Below, piece after piece: positions 11,877 through 39,037 of a stretch of 39,037 nucleotides of DNA (its first letter is position 1; the number at the start of each line of letters is the position of its first letter). The stretch is from a virus. The notes below the pieces were generated by a model that was not told the DNA's origin, searched no databases, and saw only the letters and a list, made by a program, of their open reading frames with translations. The stretch lies in IMG/VR virus record IMGVR_UViG_3300010885_072385, positions 1 through 39,037 of that record; one strand, given 5' to 3'. Both the position numbers and the translations under genes were made by a program.

Positions 11877-12116
11877 ATGACAAAAAAGCCATTTATAGAT
11901 CTGGAAAACCTATCAATATATTTGAAACGCACCAGCATTGATGCAATAAAAGCAGCCATGGGTGAATTAGATTATGTGGTTGACCGTGATTATTGGATAT
12001 ATACCGATCAATACCTGGGTTTCAAACAATTTAGAATCAAATGTAGAAATGCAGCAATATTTGGCAAAATATCAAAATTAATCAATATTGAATCCAATCA
12101 AATAAATAAAGCATGA
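11877..12116 (+). CDS. Small hypothetical protein, 79 residues
   Basis: Unrecognised; begins MTKKPFIDLENLSIYLKRTS. The centre, DYVVDRDYWIYTDQYLGFKQFRIK, suggests a small alpha/beta fold. It overlaps the start of the large GH19 gene by 4 nt (ATGA at 12113-12116), so the two are probably translationally coupled. A helper or regulator of the downstream muralytic protein is possible but not shown by the sequence. Confidence 0.55.
   Translation: MTKKPFIDLENLSIYLKRTSIDAIKAAMGELDYVVDRDYWIYTDQYLGFKQFRIKCRNAAIFGKISKLINIESNQINKA
12101..12108 (+). promoter_or_regulatory. ATAAATA box before the GH19 gene
   Basis: AATAAATA lies inside the end of the preceding small gene, with 4 nt (AAGC) before the ATG at 12113. 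It has the same spacing as boxes at 26265, 34377 and, on the minus strand, 27261. Confidence 0.4.
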
Positions 12117-15100
12117 CACGTGAATTATTTGAATTTGTGACAACTGAATTATTGACTCATCCTGGTGGGTGGATAGATAATCTCGGAAATTTATATCATT
12201 TGGGAAATTTATCCCATGATGAAGCTGCTAAAACAATTTTTGATTTTGAATATGGTTCTGCTTCTGCACTGAATATGGGTTTCATAAAATTCGATTACAG
12301 CATAGAAAATCGAAGACTAATTGCAGTACTAAGAATCAAAAATGATCGTGCAATCAAAAAATTAATTGATTTAATAAAAAACAATACTCCCAAACATGTT
12401 ACTATTCATATGGAAAATGAATTCACGTTCAAAACTGATTATGAAGATGCCGTTCAAATATTATTTGATTTTTTGAATCACAGTAAAAAACCAACTACAA
12501 ATACGCATTACCAACCCATATCTGAATCAGAAGCAGTTCCTCATACTGATTATGGTTATTGGATAATAATGACTGGAGAAATTGAACCAGTGCCTTTTGA
12601 AAAGCATCAGTATGTTGGTCGGGAACTGATTAGAAAACACAATTTAATTATCGCATATGACAAAGATGTAAACGGGTTTTTATTGAGTATAGGATGTATT
12701 CGAGTTGCAATAGAAGATGACAACAGAGTTGCAGTTGAAATGTATGAATATAAACGTCCTGCATTAAAGTCACTGCTAAGAATATTAAAAGAATTGGAAA
12801 AATTTTCTGAACAATCCCTGGACATAATATTAGAATGGGGCAGTAATTACGAAGAAGTAGATTTTATTACTGCGGTGAGAAAAATAAACAAAAAGATAGA
12901 AAGTTTAGTCAATATGAAACATATGGCAGAAAATCGAGGATTTCGTTCTGAAATCTCTAGACAAATCACATTGAGAGAAAATCTAAGATTGAAAGAAGAC
13001 TACACACTTTCATATGAAGATCCTCAGTTACAGCGGATATGGGGTCCAGCTGAAGCTGACATAGTTTACAATGATGATGGCAGTAAAAAAGGATCACGTG
13101 CTGGGAAAATAATACTTGCACTCGCCGGTTTGAGTACTACCTGGGGCATATATTTTGCGTTAACTAATGAGCAACTTGAATCTGTCACAGCTGACATTTT
13201 AATAAAAACGTCAGTTGATCATTTGGTAGATAGCATTGCATCTACATTACCATCACAACAGGACGTAGGTAATATTGATCATATCGATCAACATACTGAG
13301 AACGGACACCAAGTAGTAAAAATCCCTGACAATATACAGCCAGCAGTGGGACTACCTGATTCAGATGGTATAGCAAATGTTGACAATATAGATACCACCA
13401 CGCCTGACATCAATCTTCATCCCTATCAAGATAAGATAGATCCCAGTAAAACCATACATGTTCCCAAACACATTAACCATGAAATAAGAGTTCCAAAAAA
13501 TATGGAACACTTGCCAGTAATTACACGTGAAAAATTTGTTGCTGAAGCACATCATATGAAGGGGGTTGATGAATTACTTCATACTCCAAATGGACAAGCT
13601 CTTCTAGCAGAAGCTCAATCACAAGGACTCAAAGGTACTGAACTACTCCAGTTTGTTGCGCAATGTGCACATGAAACACAGGGCTTTACAAAATTGGAAG
13701 AGGCTGGAAGTCATCGATATTTCCGTAAATATGAACCCAATCATACATTGGGACAGATGTTGGGAAATAAACATCCCGGAGATGGAGAATTATACAAGGG
13801 GCGCGGATTCATACACATTACAGGACGACACAATTATGAAGTTGCTGCCAAAGCATTGCACATGCCGGAATTAGTTGAACATCCTGAGCTTGGTAGTAAA
13901 CCAGATGTGGCAGCAAAAATAGCAGTATGGTATTGGAAAACTCGTGTACAAGATCACGTACATGATTTTTCAAACACATCTCATGTAACTCAATTCATCA
14001 ATCCCAACGAACTTAAGAATACAGAGCACAATACTAGATTGCATGATCGTCATCAAAGATTCTTGGATTTAAAGAAGTTTGCAAGTTTCATTTATAGCGC
14101 ATTAAATTTGGATAACTCACAAACAGTTACAGTTGAACCACTAGTAATTACTGTACATCGAGATCATCCACATCAACCACACCACTCGACCCATCATGAC
14201 CAAACATCTCCTACAGACCTGCATAATGATCAATTACATGAGCAAATTTTGAATGAATTTGAATTCACTACTATAGCAGGAATACTTACCGTTGCTTCTG
14301 GTCTATTGGGTGGGGGCGCAACTGGTGCAGTGGGCGCATTGGATCCTTACAAGAAGGCAAAGGATTTAACCAAACGTGGTGCTCGACGAATTAAAAAAGC
14401 AATGGGTGCATATCCTCTAAAGGGACATATTGAATTCGACAACTTATCAAATGTTATTGGCTATAATCCAGATAATAATTCTGCTCTTGAAATGGGAGTT
14501 GCTTTAATGAGGCGCAACAAAAGTCCAGATGTCAAAGCTCTACAGGCTGGTGGGCTGGCATTTTGGGCACTATTAGTATGTAATCCTGTTGCTCAACAAC
14601 AAGCATTTCAACAAATAAACCAAATATACCGTGGTCCAGACAATATTGCAGAAAATGCCCTGGATAATGTTACACAAGTATTTAAATCTGTAAAAACTGG
14701 TGATGTTCTTGGTTTGGCAGCTGATGTTGCATTGGTTTCTGGAGCTGCTGGTATTTCAGGATATATTGGACGACATATTGGGCACGATATGGTAATGGCA
14801 TTGAAGAAGAGATTCAATAAAAATCGAAGCAAGATGGAACAATCTGTAAGAGCTATAACATCAGCTTTGAAATGTGGAGAAGATGCAAAATTTATTACCC
14901 AAGGCCTGGCTGCATTAATTGAAGGGCAACACCCTATTGAAATTCGAGGTGCGTTGTTATGCGGAGGTATCATATTTTTCAGACTGCTGGAAGCGGAAAA
15001 AGCAACCAAAGCCGTTGTATTCGGTGAAATCATGAAAATACAAACTGAAATCTATAGTGCGATAACAGCAAGCGTTCAAGCAATAGATTATGATGATGAG

Positions 15101-15229
15101 TTTAGTGACAAAACTAGTTCAATGCCTAATGAACCACTCAGTGTGGATCAAATAGGGAAACAACAAACCAAATCAGACAAAAAATTTGTGCCCGTTTGGG
15201 AAGGTAATAAGCGTCAAGGACGGAATTGA
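12113..15229 (+). CDS. Large GH19 (chitinase-like) muralytic virion or lysis protein
   Basis: 1038 residues. The N-terminus holds two diverged tandem copies of a domain of about 110 residues (about 18-118 and 148-265), joined by a linker containing I-S-E-S (136-139). A hydrophobic segment at about 331-350 could span a membrane. A GH19 domain lies at about 498-660, with the catalytic-type AHETQGF motif (E521) and GRGFIHITGRHNY (563-575), as in phage endolysins of the chitinase-19 class that cut peptidoglycan glycan strands. A His-rich linker follows, then a C-terminal part with Gly/Ala-rich hydrophobic stretches (about 720-745, 813-825, 864-885, 945-960). Simple endolysins of this class are usually 180-300 residues, so this may be a virion-associated or injected enzyme that inserts in a membrane. 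Its 3' end overlaps the convergent M15 gene by 16 nt. Confidence 0.8.
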   Translation: MTRELFEFVTTELLTHPGGWIDNLGNLYHLGNLSHDEAAKTIFDFEYGSASALNMGFIKFDYSIENRRLIAVLRIKNDRAIKKLIDLIKNNTPKHVTIHMENEFTFKTDYEDAVQILFDFLNHSKKPTTNTHYQPISESEAVPHTDYGYWIIMTGEIEPVPFEKHQYVGRELIRKHNLIIAYDKDVNGFLLSIGCIRVAIEDDNRVAVEMYEYKRPALKSLLRILKELEKFSEQSLDIILEWGSNYEEVDFITAVRKINKKIESLVNMKHMAENRGFRSEISRQITLRENLRLKEDYTLSYEDPQLQRIWGPAEADIVYNDDGSKKGSRAGKIILALAGLSTTWGIYFALTNEQLESVTADILIKTSVDHLVDSIASTLPSQQDVGNIDHIDQHTENGHQVVKIPDNIQPAVGLPDSDGIANVDNIDTTTPDINLHPYQDKIDPSKTIHVPKHINHEIRVPKNMEHLPVITREKFVAEAHHMKGVDELLHTPNGQALLAEAQSQGLKGTELLQFVAQCAHETQGFTKLEEAGSHRYFRKYEPNHTLGQMLGNKHPGDGELYKGRGFIHITGRHNYEVAAKALHMPELVEHPELGSKPDVAAKIAVWYWKTRVQDHVHDFSNTSHVTQFINPNELKNTEHNTRLHDRHQRFLDLKKFASFIYSALNLDNSQTVTVEPLVITVHRDHPHQPHHSTHHDQTSPTDLHNDQLHEQILNEFEFTTIAGILTVASGLLGGGATGAVGALDPYKKAKDLTKRGARRIKKAMGAYPLKGHIEFDNLSNVIGYNPDNNSALEMGVALMRRNKSPDVKALQAGGLAFWALLVCNPVAQQQAFQQINQIYRGPDNIAENALDNVTQVFKSVKTGDVLGLAADVALVSGAAGISGYIGRHIGHDMVMALKKRFNKNRSKMEQSVRAITSALKCGEDAKFITQGLAALIEGQHPIEIRGALLCGGIIFFRLLEAEKATKAVVFGEIMKIQTEIYSAITASVQAIDYDDEFSDKTSSMPNEPLSVDQIGKQQTKSDKKFVPVWEGNKRQGRN

Positions 15230-22561: not shown

Positions 22562-23410
22562 ATGAGTGGCACAGTAAAAAAAGTAATTTACCTAACAAAT
22601 CGTGATTTATTAGAAGAAATTCACAAAAGTAAAAACAGTTATTCTGAATTTACTGATAAAAAATATGAAAATTATGATTTTATAGTTACAAGTTTGGATC
22701 AAGTCACTCCTGAACGATTAGAGCAAGCACAACAAAAAAAAGTTGCAGATCGAATATCCAGAATAAAAAAAGAATATGCCGCAAATGGCGTCAAAAATTA
22801 CAAACCAGTAGTTGATATCGCTGAATTTCCACTTGATGAAATTGTTATTCGATTGATGACATTTGATCATATCCCACCCAATCCCAATGAAGAAAAACTA
22901 GCAAAAGCAAAAACCACTAGTGAGCGACATATACGCTGCAACTTTCCACCATTCCAACATTATATTTTTCAAGCAGGTGAATTTAAATTAGTTGGACAAA
23001 GCCACTACAAAGACGGTGAATTCAGTTTGACACATGGAAAAATGACCAATCGACTTGCAAAAATGTTCATGATGTTGGTAGAAAAATATGGGCATCGAGG
23101 AAACTGGAGAAACTATACTTATTTGGATGAAATGAAGGGACAAGCCCTATTACAACTCAGTCAAGTTGGCCTACAATTTGATGAATCACGTTCAGACAGC
23201 CCCAACCCATTCAGTTATTTTACAACAGTATTGAAGAGTTCATTTATTAGGAATTTAAACTTGGAAAAAAGAAATCAAGATATTCGAGATGATTTATTAA
23301 TAATGAGTGGTGCTATGCCTAGTTATACTCGACAAACTGAAAATGACATCCAAAATCAAAAAACAACTGCTGAACACAAAAGCAAGAAGGCGGCAGCCGA
23401 TACTGAATAG
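22562..23410 (+). CDS. 55: Late-transcription sigma factor gp55-like
   Basis: 282 residues against 185 in T4 gp55. The sigma region-2-like part is at about 190-250: YLDEMKGQALLQLSQVGLQF, then NPFSYFTTVLKSSFIRNLNL, the gp55 family pattern. T4 gp55 replaces the host sigma factor, recognises TATAAATA and couples transcription to the sliding clamp through its C-terminus. The N-terminal half includes an extension with DFIVTSLDQVTPERLEQA and FDHIPPNPNE that I cannot assign. The start has a good Shine-Dalgarno (AGAAGGA). The presence of this gene supports reading the ATAAATA boxes in the window as late promoters. Confidence 0.88.
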   Translation: MSGTVKKVIYLTNRDLLEEIHKSKNSYSEFTDKKYENYDFIVTSLDQVTPERLEQAQQKKVADRISRIKKEYAANGVKNYKPVVDIAEFPLDEIVIRLMTFDHIPPNPNEEKLAKAKTTSERHIRCNFPPFQHYIFQAGEFKLVGQSHYKDGEFSLTHGKMTNRLAKMFMMLVEKYGHRGNWRNYTYLDEMKGQALLQLSQVGLQFDESRSDSPNPFSYFTTVLKSSFIRNLNLEKRNQDIRDDLLIMSGAMPSYTRQTENDIQNQKTTAEHKSKKAAADTE

Positions 23411-26272: not shown

Positions 26273-26276
26273 ATTG

Positions 26277-26852
26277 ATGGCAAAAGTTAATGGAAAAAAT
26301 AAAGGCAATGGATTTGAAAGAAAAATTGCCAATCTACTTAGTACACGGTTTGAAACTGAAACTGGTCTAAAATCTTCTTTTAGAAGAAATTCAGATTCCG
26401 GGTCATTTTTCGGAGGAACAAACAAGCAACGCACTGAAACACACAATTTGGATTATGCAGTGTTTGGTGATTTGATTACTCCAAAAAATTTCAAATTTTC
26501 CATTGAATGCAAACATTATAAAACTGCTCCCACGTTTCAATCACTGGTAAATCACAACATTACCATGTGGGATTCTTGGTTGAAACAAGCACAACAGGAT
26601 GCCACATCATCTAATAGAAAGATGTGTTTGATAATCAAATACAATAATGTGGACGAAATTGTCTTGGTTGCAGACAAGCTACTTGACATATATGATTATT
26701 CCAAGTACAAAACCTGGTACGTCTATAAATTGACTGATTTTCTAGCTATGCCAGATGGCTATTTTTTCGAACGTGATCAGTTTTTGTCTTCTGACCAATT
26801 ATCAACAAATGGTTCAAACTTTTCCGGACCCAAAATCAGTTCTCCTGAATAG
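26277..26852 (+). CDS. PD-(D/E)XK nuclease, possible Holliday junction resolvase
   Basis: 191 residues from the ATG at 26277 (a TTG codon just before is not needed). Residues that fit the PD-(D/E)XK core are E14 in GNGFERKIA, D65 in DYAVFGD, and E77-C-K79 in FSIECKHYK. The N-terminus is basic (MAKVNGKNKGNG) and R36-R37-N-S-D-S-G-S-F resembles resolvase-type nucleases (Hjc/RecU-like). Placement directly after gp47 and gp46 suggests a role in resolving or trimming recombination intermediates. A restriction-type nuclease is the alternative. Its last 76 nt overlap the end of the convergent Acb1-like gene. Confidence 0.75.
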   Translation: MAKVNGKNKGNGFERKIANLLSTRFETETGLKSSFRRNSDSGSFFGGTNKQRTETHNLDYAVFGDLITPKNFKFSIECKHYKTAPTFQSLVNHNITMWDSWLKQAQQDATSSNRKMCLIIKYNNVDEIVLVADKLLDIYDYSKYKTWYVYKLTDFLAMPDGYFFERDQFLSSDQLSTNGSNFSGPKISSPE

Positions 26853-27256
26853 GGCATCACGTCTTCCCAGTTTGACCACTCGGAATTATAAGTAATTGAA
26901 ACATGCGGGATGTATTCCGGAAAATCCCACTTGGCGCCCAGTGAACAAAATTCCATCCAGCGATCTTCAAGTTTTTTGGATTCGAATGACAAAACAATGG
27001 TTGTTTCTTCTTCACCAAATGCCAACAACTTTCTATCATTGGTTTCTGGTATGACTAGTTCTCTTTTCTTTGGTCGGATGAGTAACCAATCAACTGGTGT
27101 TTTTGAATGCGCAATAGTCACATGCATGTCTTCGGGTTCAAGTGGTGTCTTACAACCATTTTTTCGAGCCCATTCCCAAACCTCTTCAGCATTAAGTAGT
27201 GGACGTGATACATAAAGGGTATCCTGCTTGGATTCAAATAGATCGATAAGTTTCAT
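26777..27256 (-). CDS. Acb1-like 2H phosphodiesterase, probable anti-CBASS protein
   Basis: 159 residues from the preferred ATG at 27256 (an upstream in-frame ATG at 27271 would add five residues). Two 2H-superfamily motifs are present: H45-V-T47 in DMHVTIAHSKTPVDW and H118-V-S120 in YIPHVSITYN, spaced as in Acb1 of T4-like phages (T4 gp57B family, about 150 residues). Acb1 hydrolyses the cyclic di- and trinucleotide signals of CBASS immunity. The ending GELILGPEKFEPF also fits that family as I recall it. The N-terminus MKLIDLFES contains L-F-E followed by S, like the capsid-targeting peptides of T4 internal proteins. RNA 2',5'-ligase-like activity is the alternative for a 2H fold. Confidence 0.75.
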   Translation of the reverse strand: MKLIDLFESKQDTLYVSRPLLNAEEVWEWARKNGCKTPLEPEDMHVTIAHSKTPVDWLLIRPKKRELVIPETNDRKLLAFGEEETTIVLSFESKKLEDRWMEFCSLGAKWDFPEYIPHVSITYNSEWSNWEDVMPYSGELILGPEKFEPFVDNWSEDKN

Positions 27257-27260
27257 CAAA

Positions 27261-27268
27261 TATTTATG
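27261..27268 (-). promoter_or_regulatory. Late-promoter-like box before the Acb1-like gene
   Basis: The minus strand reads CATAAATA, then TTTG, then the ATG at 27256. This box argues for the shorter start, since the upstream ATG at 27271 would lie before it. Confidence 0.5.
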
Positions 27269-27307
27269 CATTTTTATTTGAAAAATATTTTTTTTATTTT
27301 GCGATTC

Positions 27308-27315
27308 AATAAATA
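27308..27315 (+). promoter_or_regulatory. Late-promoter-like box before the structured RNA region
   Basis: AATAAATA in an A/T-rich stretch; transcription would start near 27320, where the base composition changes abruptly to higher G+C. It is the likely source of the candidate non-coding RNA. Confidence 0.45.
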
Positions 27316-27377
27316 GATGCCTATACTACTAATGTTGACGGAATAATTACCCGGACATCTTAGGAAAAAAGGCACCA

Positions 27378-27662
27378 ATGACTGCAGAATGCGGAAAAAT
27401 GAAAAACCTGGTTGTTCAGACCTGGTACCCCATCATGGGTGTTGCTGACGAAGAATTCGTCGGAAAGGCAGTCGCCTCTGTCACTGTTCTTGACTCACAA
27501 AAAAGAAGGGATTGGAAACAACCGCTGCATAGTCCGAAAATAGTAGGGCGCCGTAGATTGACCGTTTTCCAATCCCCTCGTCAATCACAAAATCAGAAAA
27601 CACAAGACGACATTTCAATGAACGTTCAACTACGAACGGAACCAGCGCCGCTAGCTGCCTAG
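27378..27662 (+). CDS. Doubtful ORF of 94 residues inside the structured region
   Basis: ATG at 27378 with AAAAAAGG upstream at good spacing. The first 45 residues look protein-like (GKMKNLVVQTWYPIMGVADE), but the rest is basic and low in structure (RRDWKQ, VGRRRLTVFQSPRQSQ), uses AGA, AGG and CGC codons uncommon in the neighbours, and coincides with the 11-bp stem of the RNA. It ends APLAA. It may be a real small protein with an unusual tail, a leader peptide, or chance. I recognise no family. Confidence 0.25.
   Translation: MTAECGKMKNLVVQTWYPIMGVADEEFVGKAVASVTVLDSQKRRDWKQPLHSPKIVGRRRLTVFQSPRQSQNQKTQDDISMNVQLRTEPAPLAA
27508..27576. repeat. 11-bp perfect inverted repeat in the RNA candidate
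   Basis: GGGATTGGAAA (27508-27518) pairs with TTTCCAATCCC (27566-27576) around a 47-nt loop that is itself G+C rich. It is the longest perfect stem in the candidate RNA apart from the terminator. Confidence 0.75.
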
Positions 27663-28155
27663 TGTGGTGACCCCACATTATGGAAAAACGGAGACATACC
27701 TATACTGAATAGTGGTTATCCGGTTTAACCGTACCACTCGTGCCACTGGAAGCGGCGAGGCGGCCATCACGTAAGGGGACTTCTAGTCATAAGCCCCAGT
27801 AGGAAAAATGACACAAAGGATCTAGAGTCGGGACAACGCTGACTCTATGATGCATCACCAGTCACATTGTGCATAGACGGTGGTGTAGCTTGGGTGAGAC
27901 TCCCATAACCGAGTATGATGACAACATCAGAGTATTGGGTCCGAAAGCTGGAAACTAGGTACTCCGCCAGCACCGGTAAACATTCCGGAAGGACATATGC
28001 ACATCGTTTCCAAAACTGCAATACATGAAGACCAATTCTATTTTTTGGCAATTTCTTCGATCAGTTCAGAACGAGTAACTCCTGGCAACGGGAGTACCGT
28101 GACACCCAGCAAACATGAAGCCTATTGGGCTACGCCAATTAAATTATCATTCACC

Positions 28156-28274
28156 AACTAATTAGAAAAACCTAACCGAAGTGATACTTGAGTACCTTTA
28201 GGTACGAAAAGTACACGAGGTTAAGCCAAGCGTAGCTTGTGCTTGTTATAGTTGATTAAGATTGAAAATTAGTT
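28156..28274. repeat. Multibranched inverted-repeat domain
   Basis: AACTAATT (28156-28163) pairs with AATTAGTT (28267-28274), closing a domain that contains AACCT/AGGTT, the hairpin GTACC-TTTA-GGTAC (28192-28205) and the hairpin AAGC-CAAGC-GTA-GCTTG-T-GCTT (near 28223-28244). Nesting of this kind is hard to explain as chance and indicates a folded RNA domain. Confidence 0.65.
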
Positions 28275-28390
28275 AGATTGCTTAGATCACTTAGAACAAC
28301 TGATTAAACAAATTACTGAATGACTAATTGAAAAGAGAAACTAAAAATTGCTCCCGACAATTAAGGTGTTCTATGACTTGAATTCCTTGT

Positions 28391-28413
28391 TCAGGAACGC
28401 TTCGCGCCCCTGA
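28391..28413. repeat. Short G+C hairpin before the terminator
   Basis: TCAGG (28391-28395) pairs with CCTGA (28409-28413) around an inner CGC-TTC-GCG. It sits 6 nt before the long A/T stem of the bidirectional terminator and may be the last helix of the RNA. Confidence 0.5.
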
Positions 28414-28418
28414 CCAAC

Positions 28419-28473
28419 AAAAAGAAAAATCTTGACCTCATCGCTTCGCTCTGATGTCAGACTTTTTCTTTTT
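28419..28473. terminator. Bidirectional terminator-like hairpin
   Basis: AAAAAGAAAAA (28419-28429) is the exact reverse complement of TTTTTCTTTTT (28463-28473). The inner arms TGAC-n-TCA and TGA-n-GTC also pair, around a loop TCGCTTCGCTC. Read on either strand, an A-rich arm, a stem and a T-rich arm result. It lies between the plus-strand RNA candidate and the minus-strand gp26/gp51 operon, where convergent transcription must stop. Confidence 0.75.
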
Positions 28474-28525
28474 GAAATTTTCAGAATTATTGGTTTTCAG
28501 AAATTTTTCTGTGATCTTCTTGACT

Positions 28526-28544
28526 GATTTTTCGGAGAAAAATC
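28526..28544. repeat. 8-bp hairpin downstream of the gp51-like gene
   Basis: GATTTTTC (28526-28533), loop GGA, GAAAAATC (28537-28544). It lies 32 nt beyond the end of the minus-strand chaperone operon; no T tract follows, so termination is uncertain. Confidence 0.5.
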
Positions 28545-28575
28545 CAATAGAGTTCCGCAGGAATCCACGCCAATT

Positions 28576-32151: not shown

Positions 32152-34374
32152 ATGGCTCGTTGGCAAAGGTATTTTTCAGCTGTTCCCACAGCAGCAGAAG
32201 TTCAAAAACGTTTAGAGAAAAAACAAACAACTGCAAATGGATCAGCCACATCCATGGACAAATATGGTAGTCCACTGCCAGAAGTCTATAGTGGTTCAGC
32301 AAATCGAATTGAACGCTATATGCAGTACGAACAAATGGATAATGATTCCGATGTGAATCGCGCCCTTGATATTATTGCAGATTTTTCTACTCAAACATTC
32401 GAAATTGATGATGCGCCATTTACCATATTATATGGTGATGATTTAACTGAAACAGAGATTAAAATACTCAAAGAAGCTCTAACACAATGGGCTACAATCA
32501 ACGACTGGAAAAAACGTGTTTGGAGAACATTTAGAAACACTTTAAAATATGGTGATCAGTTTTTCATACGTGATCCAGAAACATGTCAACTTATTTGGGT
32601 TGATCCCAACAAAGTGGAAAAGATTATTGTTAATGAATCCAAAGGCAAGAAAATTGAACAATATGTGGTAAGTGACTTGGATCTCAATTTGATATCACAA
32701 GTTGGATCCAACATGTTGGTGCATGATGCCTATACTTTCCCCAGTGGTGTTCCTCGTAATGCCAATACTGGATTGGGTGCGGGCGCAGTTAGCATGGGAA
32801 TTCATAGTCAGTCAAGTCGTAATAGTCGTTTTATGAGTCAAGCTAGCAATTTTGCCGTGGATGCAGTGCATGTGGTTCATTTTAGTTTAAGTGAAGGATT
32901 GGACGGACAATGGCCATTTGGAACGAGTATATTAGAAAATGTTTTTAAAATCTTCAAACAAAAAGATTTGTTGGAAGATGCAGTCATTATATATAGAATT
33001 GTTCGAGCACCGGAACGACTGGTATTTAAAATTGATGTTGGTGGGCTGAGTGGACCACGTGCACAACAGTTCGTAGAGAGAGTTAAGCAAGAAATTTATC
33101 AACGTAGAATCCCAGGTGTTTCTGCATCTGGTAAATCTGGACAAGATGCATCCTATTCACCAATTTCAATAACCGACAATTTTTTCCTTGCAACTGATTC
33201 TGAAGGCAAAGGAACAACTATAGAAACACTGCCAGGCGGAGATAATTTGGGTTGTTTTGCAATGGATACCAAAATTGTCTTGCTAGACGGCCGTCATTTA
33301 TCAATTTCTGAGATTGCAACTGAATTGGCCACTGGTAAAAAACTTTGCACTCTAAGTTGTGATCCGGTAACAGGTGAAGTTGCTCCAGGTATTATTGACT
33401 GGGCAGGTATAACACGACGTTCAGCACAAGTAATGAAAATTACTTTAAGTAATGGTAGTAGTTTTGTGTGTACGCCAGACCATGAATTTCCTAAGTTGGA
33501 CCAGGGATTCGTTGAAATACAAGATTGGCAAATTGGTGATGCTTTTATCACAGTAGATCAAAAACAGCCTGTTACTATTGTTGATAAAGAGTTATTAGAA
33601 GATAAAATTGATGTTGGTACACTAACAATTGACCGGGGTGAATTGCTGCATGACTGGCATACATACGCGCTTTCAGCCGGGGTTTTTGCTAAGAATTCAA
33701 TAGACGATTTAAAATTTTTCCAGAACAAGTTGTTCAGAGGACTTGGAATTCCCAGTAGTTATTTGCCAACTGGACCAGATGATGGTACCGCAACCTTCAA
33801 TGATGGTAAAGTTGGTACAGCATACATACAGGAGTTTCGATTCAGTAAGTATTGTGCTCGACTACAAAATAATTTTACTCCTATTCTAGATCACGAATTT
33901 AAAATGTTTTTGAAGAACCGTGGTATTGAAATATCCAGTAGTGATTTTAGTCTACAAATGTGGCCACCGCAAAGCTTTGGTGAATATAGACAAATGCAAT
34001 TGGACTCTGAGCGTATTAATATCTACAGCAGTATTATGTCAACTAATGCAAATCGATTCATGAGTCAACGGTATGCTTTAAAGAAATATTTGGGATGGAC
34101 TGATGAAGATATTTTGGAAAACGAGCGTATGTGGAAAGAAGAAAATGCCAGCAGGTTGAAATCACAAACTGGACAGTCACCAATTGACTCTAATCAATTG
34201 GGATTGAGTTCTGTGGGTGTTAAACCACAAGCTGGTGGATTTGATATGGGTGGTGATTTTGGTGCACCTGGGCCCGAATCCACTGAAGCCGCGCCACAAG
34301 CAGAAGAAAATACACCGGCCTCAACTGAAGTACAAAATGCAGCAACCAATGGAACTGGCTTGGAAGGTCTATAA
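32152..34374 (+). CDS. 20: Portal vertex protein gp20, interrupted by a mini-intein
   Basis: 740 residues, of which 148 (368-515) are an intein, leaving a 592-residue portal (T4 gp20 has 524). Portal hallmarks are the N-terminal YMQYEQMDNDSDVNRALDII, the wing/clip region LKYGDQFFIRDPETCQLIWV, VVHFSLSEGLDGQWPFGTSI, IYRIVRAPERLVFKIDVG, and LPGGDNLG joined after splicing to SIDDLKFFQNKL. The portal forms the dodecameric ring at the head vertex through which DNA is packaged and the tail attached. The C-terminus is Ala, Glu and Pro rich. Without splicing the intein would split one of the most conserved portal motifs. Confidence 0.93.
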   Translation: MARWQRYFSAVPTAAEVQKRLEKKQTTANGSATSMDKYGSPLPEVYSGSANRIERYMQYEQMDNDSDVNRALDIIADFSTQTFEIDDAPFTILYGDDLTETEIKILKEALTQWATINDWKKRVWRTFRNTLKYGDQFFIRDPETCQLIWVDPNKVEKIIVNESKGKKIEQYVVSDLDLNLISQVGSNMLVHDAYTFPSGVPRNANTGLGAGAVSMGIHSQSSRNSRFMSQASNFAVDAVHVVHFSLSEGLDGQWPFGTSILENVFKIFKQKDLLEDAVIIYRIVRAPERLVFKIDVGGLSGPRAQQFVERVKQEIYQRRIPGVSASGKSGQDASYSPISITDNFFLATDSEGKGTTIETLPGGDNLGCFAMDTKIVLLDGRHLSISEIATELATGKKLCTLSCDPVTGEVAPGIIDWAGITRRSAQVMKITLSNGSSFVCTPDHEFPKLDQGFVEIQDWQIGDAFITVDQKQPVTIVDKELLEDKIDVGTLTIDRGELLHDWHTYALSAGVFAKNSIDDLKFFQNKLFRGLGIPSSYLPTGPDDGTATFNDGKVGTAYIQEFRFSKYCARLQNNFTPILDHEFKMFLKNRGIEISSSDFSLQMWPPQSFGEYRQMQLDSERINIYSSIMSTNANRFMSQRYALKKYLGWTDEDILENERMWKEENASRLKSQTGQSPIDSNQLGLSSVGVKPQAGGFDMGGDFGAPGPESTEAAPQAEENTPASTEVQNAATNGTGLEGL
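33253..33696 (+). other. 148-residue mini-intein in the portal gene
   Basis: The insertion starts at C368 (CFAMDTKIVLLDG, splicing block A with a nucleophilic Cys) and ends at N515, followed by S516, the +1 nucleophile. Block B is present as T441-P-D-H444. Block F has H503-T-Y-A-L-S-A-G-V, the histidine 12 residues before the terminal Asn. Block G reads VFAKN: the usual penultimate His is Lys (K514). No homing-endonuclease domain fits in 148 residues. The flanks rejoin as LPGGDNLG and SIDDL, a contiguous T4-like portal motif. This is a class 1-type intein fixed without its own mobility gene. Confidence 0.88.
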
Positions 34375-34388: not shown

Positions 34389-37265
34389 ATGACATCCCGA
34401 CTTATTACCTTATTGGAAAACAACGCTTATCGATCATATACTAAAGCTGAATATGATGCGATGAAGAAATTGCCTGGTAATATTTTAAATCCACTATTTA
34501 GAACTACCAATTATAGACAGACGTTTTGGAGCGGTGATCCCAATAAATTCTCATTTTCAGCAAAGAGTAAATCTGAATTCGAAGTACTGCAAGGAGTTTT
34601 GACTGAGTTTAATTATCCTTTTGAATATATATCATCAGTAAGTATTGATGTAAATGGATCAAAAAAAATGACTTGGGTGGTAGTTTCTCCGATATTGGTT
34701 TGGTATAAATCGGGAACAACTGAGGGAAAAAACAACTTTGTTCGATTACTTGATACTTCGGGCAAGTTAATCTATGAATGTTCAATTGAACAGATAACCC
34801 AACAAGATCCTTCGGATATTATGGCATTGATTTATAGTAAATTAGGTATTGCAATGCCTTTTTATCAAGATAATCCCTTGGCAACTGATGAACAACAAAT
34901 TGCTTATGCGACACGTTATAAATCTGCTTATCAGGATCTAATAACGAAGGGCATTCAACCCGGTGATGCTGTTAAATTGAAAGTATTGAAAAAATTCCCA
35001 CTTGCTATTCAATGGATGCCGGACCCAACTGAACAAATGCAATTGACCGCGTTAAAATCTATACCAAATAATTCAAAAGCATATACCCGTTTCTACACAC
35101 TATCCACGGTTGTAAAGAACCCAACTGAAGAATTTTCAATGAAGCTCATTGATCATTATCCAGGTCATATTAAGCACTTGGTTAATCCCAGTGACAAACT
35201 TATTTTTCATGCATTGCAGAACCAGCCCAATCTTATTCAATATTTTTGTGATGGTCCACAGACTTTAAAATTCCAATTGGCTGCGGTTAAACAAACTTAT
35301 ACAGCATTGCGTGAAATTAAAAATCCGGCTCCACTAATACAGGCAGTGGCATGTCAAAAATCTCCGTCTGCAATAAATCTTGTAATTCCTGTGGAATCAG
35401 CTGACATAAGTTTGCTCAAACAACATCGATCAATATTGTATCCAGCACAACTAGCTTATTTGGAAAAAATTGAACAGCAAGAACAATTAACAGAATCTGT
35501 TGATGTCGATATGTCTGATTGGAGTGAACAAGAAAAAGCACATTATAGAAAAGCATTGGAAATATCTTCACAAGAACGTGATATTGCAGAAATAGTAGAA
35601 TATATCAACAGTCATAAAATTTCGGACCGAGTATTGATTGCTATATTCGAATATATGGATATAATCGATTATGTTGATTGTGCTAATTTATCAATACCAG
35701 TACAATTGTGGCTTGTTAATGAATATGCTTGGAATATACAATGTATTAAATCACCAGCGCCAATGATACAGGCAGTAGCTTGTCGCAAACAGCCTGGTTC
35801 AATAAATCTTGTAACTCCAATAGAATCAATTGACATATCATTGCTAAAGAAATACAGAGACATATTGAATCCGCCTCGATCGGTTTATTTGGAAAAGATT
35901 GAAAAACAAGAACGACTAACAGAAACAATAAACATTGTTGAATCTTCTGTAAATACACCCGAAGAAATAGAATATATTTTATCTCAAATTAAAGCATATT
36001 ATGACCAATTCGTGTCTAATAGATTGTCATATTTAATTTATATTGATTATTGTGTCAGCTTGATAAAGAAATTAATCAATCCCAGTTTAGAAACACAGTT
36101 GGCTATTGTTGCGATAGACCCTTTCCTTTTGCCCCGGTTGAATACAGACAACATAGACGTGCAAATCGCAGCAATCGGACAGCGACATGGAGTGTTTTCT
36201 CATATCAAAAATCCATCTATTCGTCTACAACTATTGACTGTACAAGAAGAACCTTTATTGATAACATATATATCTCGGCCATCTCCATTGGTACAGTGGG
36301 CAGCAATAAAAGCAGGAATCGTATACGATTATGATATTCAAAAAATAATCAATTTGATTAATCCTCCTGCCTGTATAGACCCCAGTATTATCACCTGGTG
36401 GGAAGAACAACAATCAAACCAATTAACGGAATCAACCGATCATTCTGAGTTTAGTCATCGTGAACAAGCACAGTTTGATCAAATACTTGAGATTCATAAC
36501 ACACTACCTAACGCAGATTTAAAATTTTATTTTGAAACTACTAATATTAGTGAACGAGTTTTGATTTCGTTAATTAAAATTGAACCATATTTAATATGGG
36601 ATATACCTCGCGATAAAATTACTGTTAAAATGCAATTGGCAGCAGTACACGAAAATAGCAAAGCACTAGTCGATAATCCTCCTCCGTTGGTACAAACAGT
36701 AGCTTGTAAAAATTATCCTCGGGTAATAAATCTTATAAATCCTATTAGTGCAATAGATTTTAATTTGATGAAAAAATACTATGAATACCTCACGCCTGAA
36801 CGCCGCAGTTATTTTGAAGCAATAAAAGACGAATTATTGGAATCAGTTGATCTAAACATGCCTAAAAGAACTTTGAATGGTCTGACTGAAGAACAACAAG
36901 TAGAATATGTCAAACTGCATCAAGATGATGAACCAGACCATATATTAGATGATGTAATTATGGACTCTAATTTAAGTGAAGCAGTCAAATTAAAAATACT
37001 TGCGATTAATGGTGCCTTTTTGGGATGTTTTGAAAAACCTTGGAGTTTAATATTTCAATTAGCGGCAGTTAAATCAAAACCGGGTAGTATTTTGATGATA
37101 GAAAATCCCGCACCTATGATACAATGGGCAGCTTTCCAAAAATCCAAATCAGCAATCTGGGACATATATCCTCCATCTTGCGTACTACCTGAAATTATTG
37201 CCGCTTATAATGAATGGGCTTCAGAAGATCCATGGCATAGAAAACCCTATACAGTGAAAGCGTGA
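34389..37265 (+). CDS. Helical-repeat protein with (L/I)-x-E-S linkers, possibly packaged in the head
   Basis: 958 residues, not recognised as a known enzyme. After an N-terminal domain (about 1-200) the protein repeats helical units with a core such as FQLAAVKxxxxALxxIxNPAPLIQ; larger modules of about 140-170 residues include INLVxPIESIDISLLKKYR and end in LTES or similar: 367-370 LTES, 510-513 LTET, 679-682 LTES, 816-819 LLES. The units look like HEAT/ARM-type or DUF4116-like repeats. The linkers fit the T4 prohead protease rule (L/I)-x-E before S, A or G, and the N-terminus (MTSRLITLLEN) has L-L-E at 8-10. A head-packaged, protease-processed protein is inferred. The next gene is a paralogue, with 3 nt between stop and start. 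Confidence 0.7.
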   Translation: MTSRLITLLENNAYRSYTKAEYDAMKKLPGNILNPLFRTTNYRQTFWSGDPNKFSFSAKSKSEFEVLQGVLTEFNYPFEYISSVSIDVNGSKKMTWVVVSPILVWYKSGTTEGKNNFVRLLDTSGKLIYECSIEQITQQDPSDIMALIYSKLGIAMPFYQDNPLATDEQQIAYATRYKSAYQDLITKGIQPGDAVKLKVLKKFPLAIQWMPDPTEQMQLTALKSIPNNSKAYTRFYTLSTVVKNPTEEFSMKLIDHYPGHIKHLVNPSDKLIFHALQNQPNLIQYFCDGPQTLKFQLAAVKQTYTALREIKNPAPLIQAVACQKSPSAINLVIPVESADISLLKQHRSILYPAQLAYLEKIEQQEQLTESVDVDMSDWSEQEKAHYRKALEISSQERDIAEIVEYINSHKISDRVLIAIFEYMDIIDYVDCANLSIPVQLWLVNEYAWNIQCIKSPAPMIQAVACRKQPGSINLVTPIESIDISLLKKYRDILNPPRSVYLEKIEKQERLTETINIVESSVNTPEEIEYILSQIKAYYDQFVSNRLSYLIYIDYCVSLIKKLINPSLETQLAIVAIDPFLLPRLNTDNIDVQIAAIGQRHGVFSHIKNPSIRLQLLTVQEEPLLITYISRPSPLVQWAAIKAGIVYDYDIQKIINLINPPACIDPSIITWWEEQQSNQLTESTDHSEFSHREQAQFDQILEIHNTLPNADLKFYFETTNISERVLISLIKIEPYLIWDIPRDKITVKMQLAAVHENSKALVDNPPPLVQTVACKNYPRVINLINPISAIDFNLMKKYYEYLTPERRSYFEAIKDELLESVDLNMPKRTLNGLTEEQQVEYVKLHQDDEPDHILDDVIMDSNLSEAVKLKILAINGAFLGCFEKPWSLIFQLAAVKSKPGSILMIENPAPMIQWAAFQKSKSAIWDIYPPSCVLPEIIAAYNEWASEDPWHRKPYTVKA

Positions 37266-37268
37266 TTG

Positions 37269-39037
37269 ATGAAACTCAATAATCGCAAACAAATAGTGGA
37301 ATCAAGAATTTTTGAAAAACGTTGTAACTATTTCAAATCATTAACTGATGATCAAAAAATTAATTATGCGGAACGCAATTGGCATATTTCCGATATGCCT
37401 GTGATCATCGCAAGTCAAACTTGGAGTGAAAAAGTACAGCTTGCTTTATTAGACGTAGGTGGGGGTGATTTTTTTAATTATCTCAAGAATCCCACTATAA
37501 AAGTTCAATTGACGGCAGTAAAATATAATGGATTTAATATTGTTGCGATTCAAAACCCGCTTCCCATGATACAGTGGGCGGCGTTTAAAAATGATCCGAT
37601 GTCAATATGGAATATTAGACCTATTACATGTGTATTACCTGAACTTGCAGAAGAATACAATAAATGGGCTGATAACAATCCGGGTTATAGAAAATTTGTA
37701 GTTGAATCAAACATATTTGAGAGTCTAGAACACTTTGGTGACGACCAACCAGACTTTGATGAACTTGGTGAAGATGAACAGATTGAATTTATTAAACAAA
37801 ATTTGGATGATGCTGAATATGATATATTGGTAAATGTACTATGTGATGCGAAATATATCAGTGAAAGAGTTCAACTAGCTGCCGTAAAATTAAAACCGGA
37901 TCTAATTATTTGTTTTAATGATACAAGTATATTGGTGCAGTTAGAAGCGGTCAAAAGAGATGGTACAGCAATTTTTCATATATGGAGACCAAGTCCCTTG
38001 ATTCAAGCTGCTGCTTGCAAACAAGACCCTGATGCTGTCAATCTCATAGAACCAATTAACGTCATCGATATTAATCTTTTGAAAAAATATAGATCTGCAC
38101 TAGGCTTTGAAAGACAGGAATATTTGAAACAACTGGAAAAGCAAACAACGCTAACTGAATCAAAATACGCTATTGAGGATGGTTATTTTAAAACAGGTAC
38201 ATTTAAAGGTAAATGGGCACTTTCTTTTAATGATGATACTTGGCGAGAAGATGATATTATTGATTTTATAAAAGATTTTTATCAAGATGGTTCTTCGAAC
38301 AATGCTGATTTTCTTTTATTTGAAGAAATAATGCGTTCTTCTGATTTAAGTGAACGCGTGCAGTTAGAATTAGTTAAAGTAGACGCATATGGTTTGAATT
38401 TAATTGAAAAACCCAGCATTCGAGTTCAACTGGCAGCAGTAAATAATAAAGGCTTGGCCATTAGTGAAATTTACAATCCACTGCCTATGATCCAATGGGC
38501 TGCGGTAAAAAATAACTATAATGCAATATGGGAAATAAATCCCAAACAGTCAATAATAGAAGACGTTAAAACATATTATAACACCTGGGCCAAAGAACAA
38601 TTTACTCGCCGACTATTTGTAGAATCAAAACGATATAATTCACTGGATCCTAATACTTGGAGTGATCAACAGATACTGGATTATATTGGTGAACGTGTAG
38701 AAAGAATTAACTCAGGCAATGATTATACAACGGAAGTGAATGAAATTCGTCGATTGGTCAAATGCTTGACGTCAGCTAGTGAAAGCCTAATAAAAGCTGT
38801 TATCAAAATAGAACCCGGCTGTTTTGAATTGTTTGCTGATAAATTCCCAATTTCAATCTCACTTCAAATCTGGGCAGTTCAGTATGCGGACTACATGATT
38901 GATTATATCAAAGATCCAGCTCCGCTAGTTCAATGGGCGGCAGTATCTGCAAATAGATCAGCGCTATTTTGTATGAACATCAAAAAATTGGATCCTACGA
39001 TTCGTGAAAAATATCGAGATTTTTTGATAAAAAATGA
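37269..39037 (+). CDS. Second helical-repeat protein, paralogue of the preceding gene (C-terminus beyond window)
   Basis: The frame is open from ATG 37269 to the right edge (589 complete codons). It begins MKLNNRKQIVESRIFEK, with I-V-E before S at residue 11/12. It repeats the same units: VQLTAVKYNGFNIVAIQNPL, PMIQWAAFK, SERVQLAAVKLKPDLI, and IDINLLKKYR. It also has the same linkers: IFES at 149-152 and LTES at 295-298. The core PLPMIQWAA and the TWAKEQ/EYNKWA endings match the last module of the upstream protein, so it arose by tandem duplication. Function unknown; the pair follows the portal where T4 has scaffold and protease genes. Confidence 0.75.
   Translation, partial: MKLNNRKQIVESRIFEKRCNYFKSLTDDQKINYAERNWHISDMPVIIASQTWSEKVQLALLDVGGGDFFNYLKNPTIKVQLTAVKYNGFNIVAIQNPLPMIQWAAFKNDPMSIWNIRPITCVLPELAEEYNKWADNNPGYRKFVVESNIFESLEHFGDDQPDFDELGEDEQIEFIKQNLDDAEYDILVNVLCDAKYISERVQLAAVKLKPDLIICFNDTSILVQLEAVKRDGTAIFHIWRPSPLIQAAACKQDPDAVNLIEPINVIDINLLKKYRSALGFERQEYLKQLEKQTTLTESKYAIEDGYFKTGTFKGKWALSFNDDTWREDDIIDFIKDFYQDGSSNNADFLLFEEIMRSSDLSERVQLELVKVDAYGLNLIEKPSIRVQLAAVNNKGLAISEIYNPLPMIQWAAVKNNYNAIWEINPKQSIIEDVKTYYNTWAKEQFTRRLFVESKRYNSLDPNTWSDQQILDYIGERVERINSGNDYTTEVNEIRRLVKCLTSASESLIKAVIKIEPGCFELFADKFPISISLQIWAVQYADYMIDYIKDPAPLVQWAAVSANRSALFCMNIKKLDPTIREKYRDFLIKN

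Follow-up and report, generated by a model that had tools for sequence, protein, structure and literature searches.

The T4 internal proteins IPI, IPII and IPIII and the T4 ADP-ribosyltransferase Alt bear a short N-terminal L/I-x-E peptide on otherwise unrelated effectors. For IPIII, the first 10 residues are described as sufficient for packaging, with positions 4 and 7 serving in targeting and positions 8 and 10 required for processing, and the protease gp21 is reported to cut after L/I-x-E (PMC9026906); such a capsid targeting sequence (CTS) has been presented as a common feature of diverse counter-defense proteins (PMC3012670, PMC9026906). Both ipII and ipIII start MKTYQEFIAE and ipI starts MKTFKEFTSTTTPVSTITE (read from NC_000866). 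Adjoining the CTS gene ipI is 57B (acb1; NC_000866, locus L339 13592-14411), which starts MMEFKDFSTG; 57B and ipI (MKTFKEFTST) have F4-K5-x-F7 in common, and 57B is without the cleavage motif. The key residues of T4 Acb1 are given as H44, T46, H113, T115 and E141 (PMC9117128, Hobbs et al.), and the same paper describes activity from ~15 min after infection, timing which indicates that T4 Acb1 is not preloaded. Iyer et al. (2017, 2022) proposed that fusions of 2H domains to MuF or portal proteins are packaged and injected against nucleotide-based immunity (PMC5512222, PMC9503650).

The window (the whole stretch of DNA analyzed here, 39,037 nt) is a T4-type myovirus fragment; its Acb1-family gene lies amid those for a gp55-type sigma factor, SbcCD, the baseplate and the portal:

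12113..15229, plus strand: 1038-aa protein (MTRELFEFV...) with a glycoside-hydrolase 19 domain and a TAAATA-ATG layout, candidate
22562..23410, plus strand: late-transcription sigma factor, gp55-type (phrog_12791, 9.3e-79), context
26274..26852, plus strand: PDDEXK_15 / RusA-like nuclease gene, context
26777..27256, minus strand: Acb1-family 2H phosphodiesterase gene, 159 aa (MKLIDLFESKQDTLYVSRP...), starting MKLIDLFES
32152..34374, plus strand: T4-type portal protein without Acb1 fusion (phrog_213, 1.2e-99), context
34389..37265, plus strand: 958-aa protein (MTSRLITLLENN...) adjoining the portal gene, TAAATA-ATG layout, candidate

The Acb1 open reading frame runs on the minus strand from an ATG at 27256 to a stop at 26777, with its 3′ end covered for 76 nt by the convergent nuclease gene. 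A sister phage (G001, a 33 kb record) has an Acb1 gene at the equivalent place with 92% protein identity, a conservation which, together with the Pfam match given below, marks the frame as real rather than a product of chance. Portal identity to the window is 65% in G015, 58% in G004 and 57% in G002. Judged by sequence, the glycoside-hydrolase 19 protein and the 958-aa protein are both possible candidates for co-packaging. The gene for the latter and its neighbor (37266-39035) are two large adjacent genes after the portal; both match phrog_17056 and phrog_5925 (function unknown), neither gave a match in the Pfam scan, and their starts also bear L/I-x-E (LLENN, IVES).

Window positions 27300-28560 form a stretch of ~1.2 kb without a convincing ORF that is 95% identical to the sister phage, vs 88% for the surrounding 10 kb. 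A 294-nt core recurs in G002 at 74% identity, there too beside the Acb1 gene; 921 nt of the stretch give fold z-scores of -2.5 (minus strand) and -3.4 (plus strand), and an exact 25-mer from it occurs in only 2 IMG/VR contigs. Rfam returned no family at gathering score for this stretch, and a sub-threshold FourU match (E 0.45, 20.3 bits vs 60) is taken as chance; we regard the region as a candidate large structured RNA.

The assignment of the window protein to the Acb1 family of 2H phosphodiesterases is close to certain, agreeing in family, residues and predicted fold with what the initial annotation had supposed from two H-x-T/S motifs. A whole-domain match to Pfam Acb1 (PF23474; E 1.2e-35, profile 2-143 of 144) exceeds the curated cut-off of 27 with 122.8 bits, and phmmer finds the C-terminus of the Pam3 portal (8hds, 2.2e-19) and FBB1 Acb1 (7t26, 1.5e-6). 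The two motifs map onto the T4 tetrad:

27116..27124, minus strand: catalytic motif 1, H45-V-T47, equivalent to T4 H44/T46
26897..26905, minus strand: catalytic motif 2, H118-V-S120, equivalent to T4 H113/T115

Alignment with T4 57B, besides placing the HxT/HxT(S) tetrad (H45/T47, H118/S120), pairs the adenine-contact glutamate E141 with window E148, Y12 with Y15, and W147 of the C-terminal lid with W154; we take Y12 and W147 to be functionally important in 57B. H45, T47 and H118 are invariant across 75 aligned Acb1 domains. The structural comparison with Acb1 that had been suggested gives the same answer, in that VIA-align places residues 12-158 of the AlphaFold model (pLDDT 90.6, pTM 0.84) on FBB1 Acb1 (7t27) with Z 17.1 and rmsd 2.0 over 136 residues; the runner-up among the matches listed is the BCSR5 phosphodiesterase (Z 13.9), with LigT-type enzymes at ~10, and the Pam3 portal (8hds) is absent among the 50 Foldseek or VIA matches listed. 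The window protein therefore shares with T4/FBB1 Acb1 (gp57B; PDB 7t26, 7t27) the 2H fold, the HxT/HxT-S tetrad, the adenine-contact glutamate and the C-terminal tryptophan.

These features might also be those of a 2H phosphodiesterase, whether or not it is packaged, whose main substrate is a different one, for example 2′,3′-cyclic RNA termini in RNA repair or a cyclic nucleotide outside CBASS, as the HxT/S tetrad is common to 2H enzymes, LigT-type enzymes match the model at the Z noted above, and the PHROG match of the protein, PHROG 755, is named RNA ligase. We consider this improbable: Acb1 is far ahead of LigT in both the profile search (122.8 vs 15.9 bits) and structure (Z 17 vs 10), equivalents of both E141 and the lid tryptophan are kept, and no RNA ligase family was matched among the neighbors of the gene. 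Cleavage of CBASS signals is the activity that we infer for the window protein.

What sets the window protein apart from T4 57B is its start, and on comparison of starts we lean toward the view that a T4-type myovirus carries it as cargo inside the head. The relevant features lie at the 5′ end of the gene:

27233..27256, minus strand: codons 1-8, MKLIDLFE, putative CTS (L/I-x-E fit, outside the predicted fold, recurrent starts)
27233/27232, minus strand: predicted site of prohead-protease cleavage, E8/S9, where L6-F7-E8 fits the L/I-x-E rule as described in PMC9026906
27257..27271, minus strand: upstream in-frame codons MHKYL, probably untranslated, with TAAATA inside
27261..27266, minus strand: TAAATA, late-promoter-like -10 element by consensus match alone, 4 nt 5′ of the ATG

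Residues 1-10 have a mean pLDDT of 58 and the structural match to Acb1 begins at residue 12, which leaves the N-terminal extension out of the folded domain. A second in-frame ATG, at 27271, would prepend MHKYL, and Shine-Dalgarno sequences leave the choice between the two ATGs unsettled; because TAAATA lies 4 nt before the ATG at 27256 and downstream of that at 27271, 27256 is the start if the element is a promoter, and the upstream codons that contain it disfavor 27271. The sister phage has the full TATAAATA at the TAAATA position. In the window, TATAAATA occurs 4 times vs 3.7 expected, and this lack of enrichment makes it unusable as late-promoter evidence; TAAATA-N3-6-ATG is modestly enriched (11 vs 5.25). 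Set against the IPIII pattern (residues 4, 7, 8 and 10), the window start has I4 and F7 but E8 rather than E10, giving an 8-residue tag instead of the 10-residue form; the exact E10 pattern occurs on the Acb1 of G011, whose start MISFKQFLHE is that of a T4 internal protein (compare IPIII MKTYQEFIAE). The predicted cargo also differs from the T4 internal proteins in being a CBASS-signal hydrolase.

Similar starts recur on other Acb1 proteins. Related-locus scans, which covered the best 80 of 429, of 347 and of 102 confirmed matches, gave L/I-x-E starts on stand-alone or N-terminal Acb1 in at least eight proteins of at least seven lineages among the loci listed: MKLIDLFES (window and L002), MKIEDLFEA (L091), MKITELFEA (L092), MRAFELFEE (L096), MRAIEIFER (L342), MKIIELFEE (L344) and MISFKQFLHEN (L147). 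At that site the motif is absent from L012 (MKLSEITQPNK), L373 (MRLFNISAS), L101 (MRLDEFSGAPK), L108 and L234, from the Acb1 of RcXuper, DSS3P8 and MD18, from the domain-first fusions L104, L112, L113, L207, L215 and L355, and from the Straboviridae T4, FBB1, KP27, Lazarus and 1.081.O; KVP40 (MKLSKFLES) is borderline. G015 (MRLFNISASTLYV) and G002 (MKLSEITQPNKPLYV), the next-closest phages among the matches listed, also lack L/I-x-E there; in both starts residue 2 is basic and I6 is retained but the glutamate is absent, consistent either with targeting without cleavage or with no tag at all.

In L091, L092, L096 and L344, further sequence follows the Acb1 domain after VNES, VNES, LTES and LDES respectively, as if prohead-protease sites might split the modules of a packaged polyprotein. 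In G004 (L189 6715-8934), an Acb1 domain ends a 739-aa DUF6267 and cytidylyltransferase-like protein starting MKLFDLLP, and a similar Acb1 match lies within a 749-aa open frame in G026, G029 and G030.

The starts of G015 and G002 bear on an alternative in which the window Acb1 is of the usual sort, synthesized during infection without being packaged, and has at its N-terminus no more than a short disordered extension like those of Straboviridae. Short N-terminal extensions are indeed found on the Acb1 proteins of T4, FBB1, KVP40, KP27 and Lazarus, and T4 57B, lacking the L/I-x-E start, is described as active first at ~15 min (PMC9117128); that timing and the missing glutamate in the two relatives are the chief doubts about packaging. 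Against this alternative, L/I-x-E starts recur on at least seven lineages of Acb1 and also head unrelated genes in the same phages; RcXuper, DSS3P8 and MD18, whose Acb1 is like that of the window a stand-alone gene (35, 32 and 30% identity with the window protein), have no extension and no S77 protease was found there, and T4 Acb1 itself keeps the F4-K5-x-F7 of ipI. We therefore hold an unpackaged enzyme to be the less likely account, though a serious one. (A prohead-protease fusion labeled in DSS3P8 looks like a misannotation, the gene being a 150-aa stand-alone Acb1.)

A protease of the T4/gp21 type, Peptidase_S77, is present in the sister phage (E 2.9e-27; head maturation protease phrog_207), with no match within the window fragment itself. 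It was found in seven of 12 records (G001, G002, G003, G004, G005, G008, G011), in two of eight further records (G013, G015) and in four of another 11 (FBB1, KVP40, KP27, Lazarus). Among assessable non-Straboviridae with a stand-alone or N-terminal Acb1, the protein is tagged in four of the six with S77 (G001, G008, G011 and G013; untagged in G002 and G015) vs none of the four without (RcXuper, DSS3P8, MD18, G009), a weak association (p 0.07) that would weaken with Straboviridae included. This comparison omits G006, G007, G014, G010 and G012 (fragments or without a T4-type portal), Rhizobium phage N42 and the Straboviridae. G006, G007 and G014 carry a tagged Acb1 on contigs with neither S77 nor a T4-type portal, so the head module is probably missing from these records. 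An S77 protein query on G006, G007, G009, RcXuper, DSS3P8, MD18 and N42 found nothing, an empty outcome that carries little weight.

Tag-like starts extend to unrelated genes, each phage using its own variant. Expectations were obtained by shuffling each N-terminal column among genes, for five patterns in eight records, of which several pairs show nothing. G011 (150 kb) has at least eight other genes starting like MKTFKQF, including two ADP-ribosyltransferases (PF03496), and an excess both of IPIII-type starts (5 vs 1.17 expected, p 0.0035) and of M..[FY]..[FL] starts (15 vs 6.4, p 0.0005). M[KR]...hydrophobic-E starts number 30 in G008 (561 kb; 6.2 expected) and 18 in G006 (415 kb; 3.1 expected), and MK[IVL]x[DE][ILV] starts number 7 in G003 (0.5 expected), each with p <= 0.0005. 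The signal is thinner in the window's own lineage. Six of the 27 sister-phage starts bear an N-terminal hydrophobic-x-E (2.13 expected, p 0.003); they belong to the major head protein, the protease, a gene between them that we infer from its position to be the scaffold, Acb1, and two more TAAATA genes. The window has 3 such starts vs 1.36 expected (p 0.11, not significant), all three with TAAATA, and G015 shows no motif excess (3 vs 3.21 expected). Taken together, the initial claim of a CTS-like start, with L-F-E just ahead of SKQD, draws support from similar starts heading independent Acb1s as well as unrelated genes in related giant phages, and from a T4-type prohead protease in most assessable records; it is weakened by G015 and G002, two of the three closest phages, which lack the glutamate.

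Six short adjacent genes of G003 (107681-110788, L334) start MKIREITE, MKVSEVTE, MKISDLAE, MKIFEIIT, MKVNEISC and MKVCEIIV; the two of the six that were scanned have no PHROG match, and by their starts the group is a possible cassette of tagged cargo.

The tag is linked to the promoter-like element in G008 and G006, where TAAATA lies 3-6 nt before the ATG in 30 of 57 tagged vs 132 of 922 untagged genes (p 9e-11) and in 24 of 44 vs 87 of 599 (p 5e-9), respectively; the window Acb1 gene has the same TAAATA-ATG layout. Within the window the association is not significant (3/7 vs 5/19, p 0.36), and a general link in all relatives was rejected, there being none in G000, G001, G002, G003, G004, G007 and G011. 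Pfam scans of the G008/G006 TAAATA cohorts covered 51 of 54 tagged proteins (three crossing tile edges left out) and 45 of 47 untagged (two giant tail genes left out), and found ART-PolyVal in five of the 51 vs none of the 45, with one ADPrib_exo_Tox among the untagged. It seems to us an even call whether giant T4-type phages possess a late regulon of CTS-tagged cargo, in which dozens of unrelated effectors (ADP-ribosyltransferases, Acb1, many unknowns), with nothing in common but an MRxxxLLxE-like start and a TAAATA promoter immediately next to the start codon, would be head-loaded and injected, Acb1 disarming CBASS at time zero.

Association of Acb1 with the head is itself a known theme, since packaging of the portal and MuF fusions has already been proposed; a separate, tagged Acb1 is the addition here. 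Among 74 Acb1-bearing proteins (those next in score after the top one, out of 129 non-redundant domains; families may co-occur in one protein), the partners are Phage_portal_3 (36), Portal_Mu (4), Phage_portal (4), Peptidase_S78 (4), XkdF S78_2 (5), MuF (3) and DUF2213 (2), counts that come from best-scoring subsets of matches and are not population estimates. The Pam3 portal (PDB 8hds sequence), for example, comprises PF06381 and PF23474. These polyvalent proteins resemble the window system in having an Acb1-family domain linked to the head, for which packaging and counter-signaling are proposed (PMC5512222, PMC9503650); they differ in that the 2H domain is a permanent part of a portal, protease or MuF protein, whereas the window protein is separate, with a predicted detachable tag. 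The 159-aa stand-alone gene is the sole Acb1 match in the window, and the window portal is without a 2H domain. Searches of full-text PMC articles, a collection without bioRxiv and most subscription journals, turned up no description of a separate Acb1 protein with a CTS tag.

In the packaging model that we favor, the Acb1 gene would be transcribed late from the TAAATA element, and MKLIDLFE would dock the protein into the prohead core, where a gp21-type protease would cut after L6-F7-E8. The freed Acb1 would stay in the head until it passed into the next host along with the DNA, and could there hydrolyze 3′3′-cGAMP-like and cA3-like CBASS signals before newly made phage proteins could.

A phage that makes Acb1 anew races the CBASS alarm, T4 activity being described only from ~15 min (PMC9117128). 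Packaging of Acb1, if true, would abolish this delay, and the principle of the T4 internal proteins, seen in anti-restriction by IPI, would then reach anti-signaling as well. The common tag offers a sequence handle for injected effectors in uncultured giant phages and, should the late CTS regulon be true, CTS tags could list injected counter-defense proteins from sequence alone.
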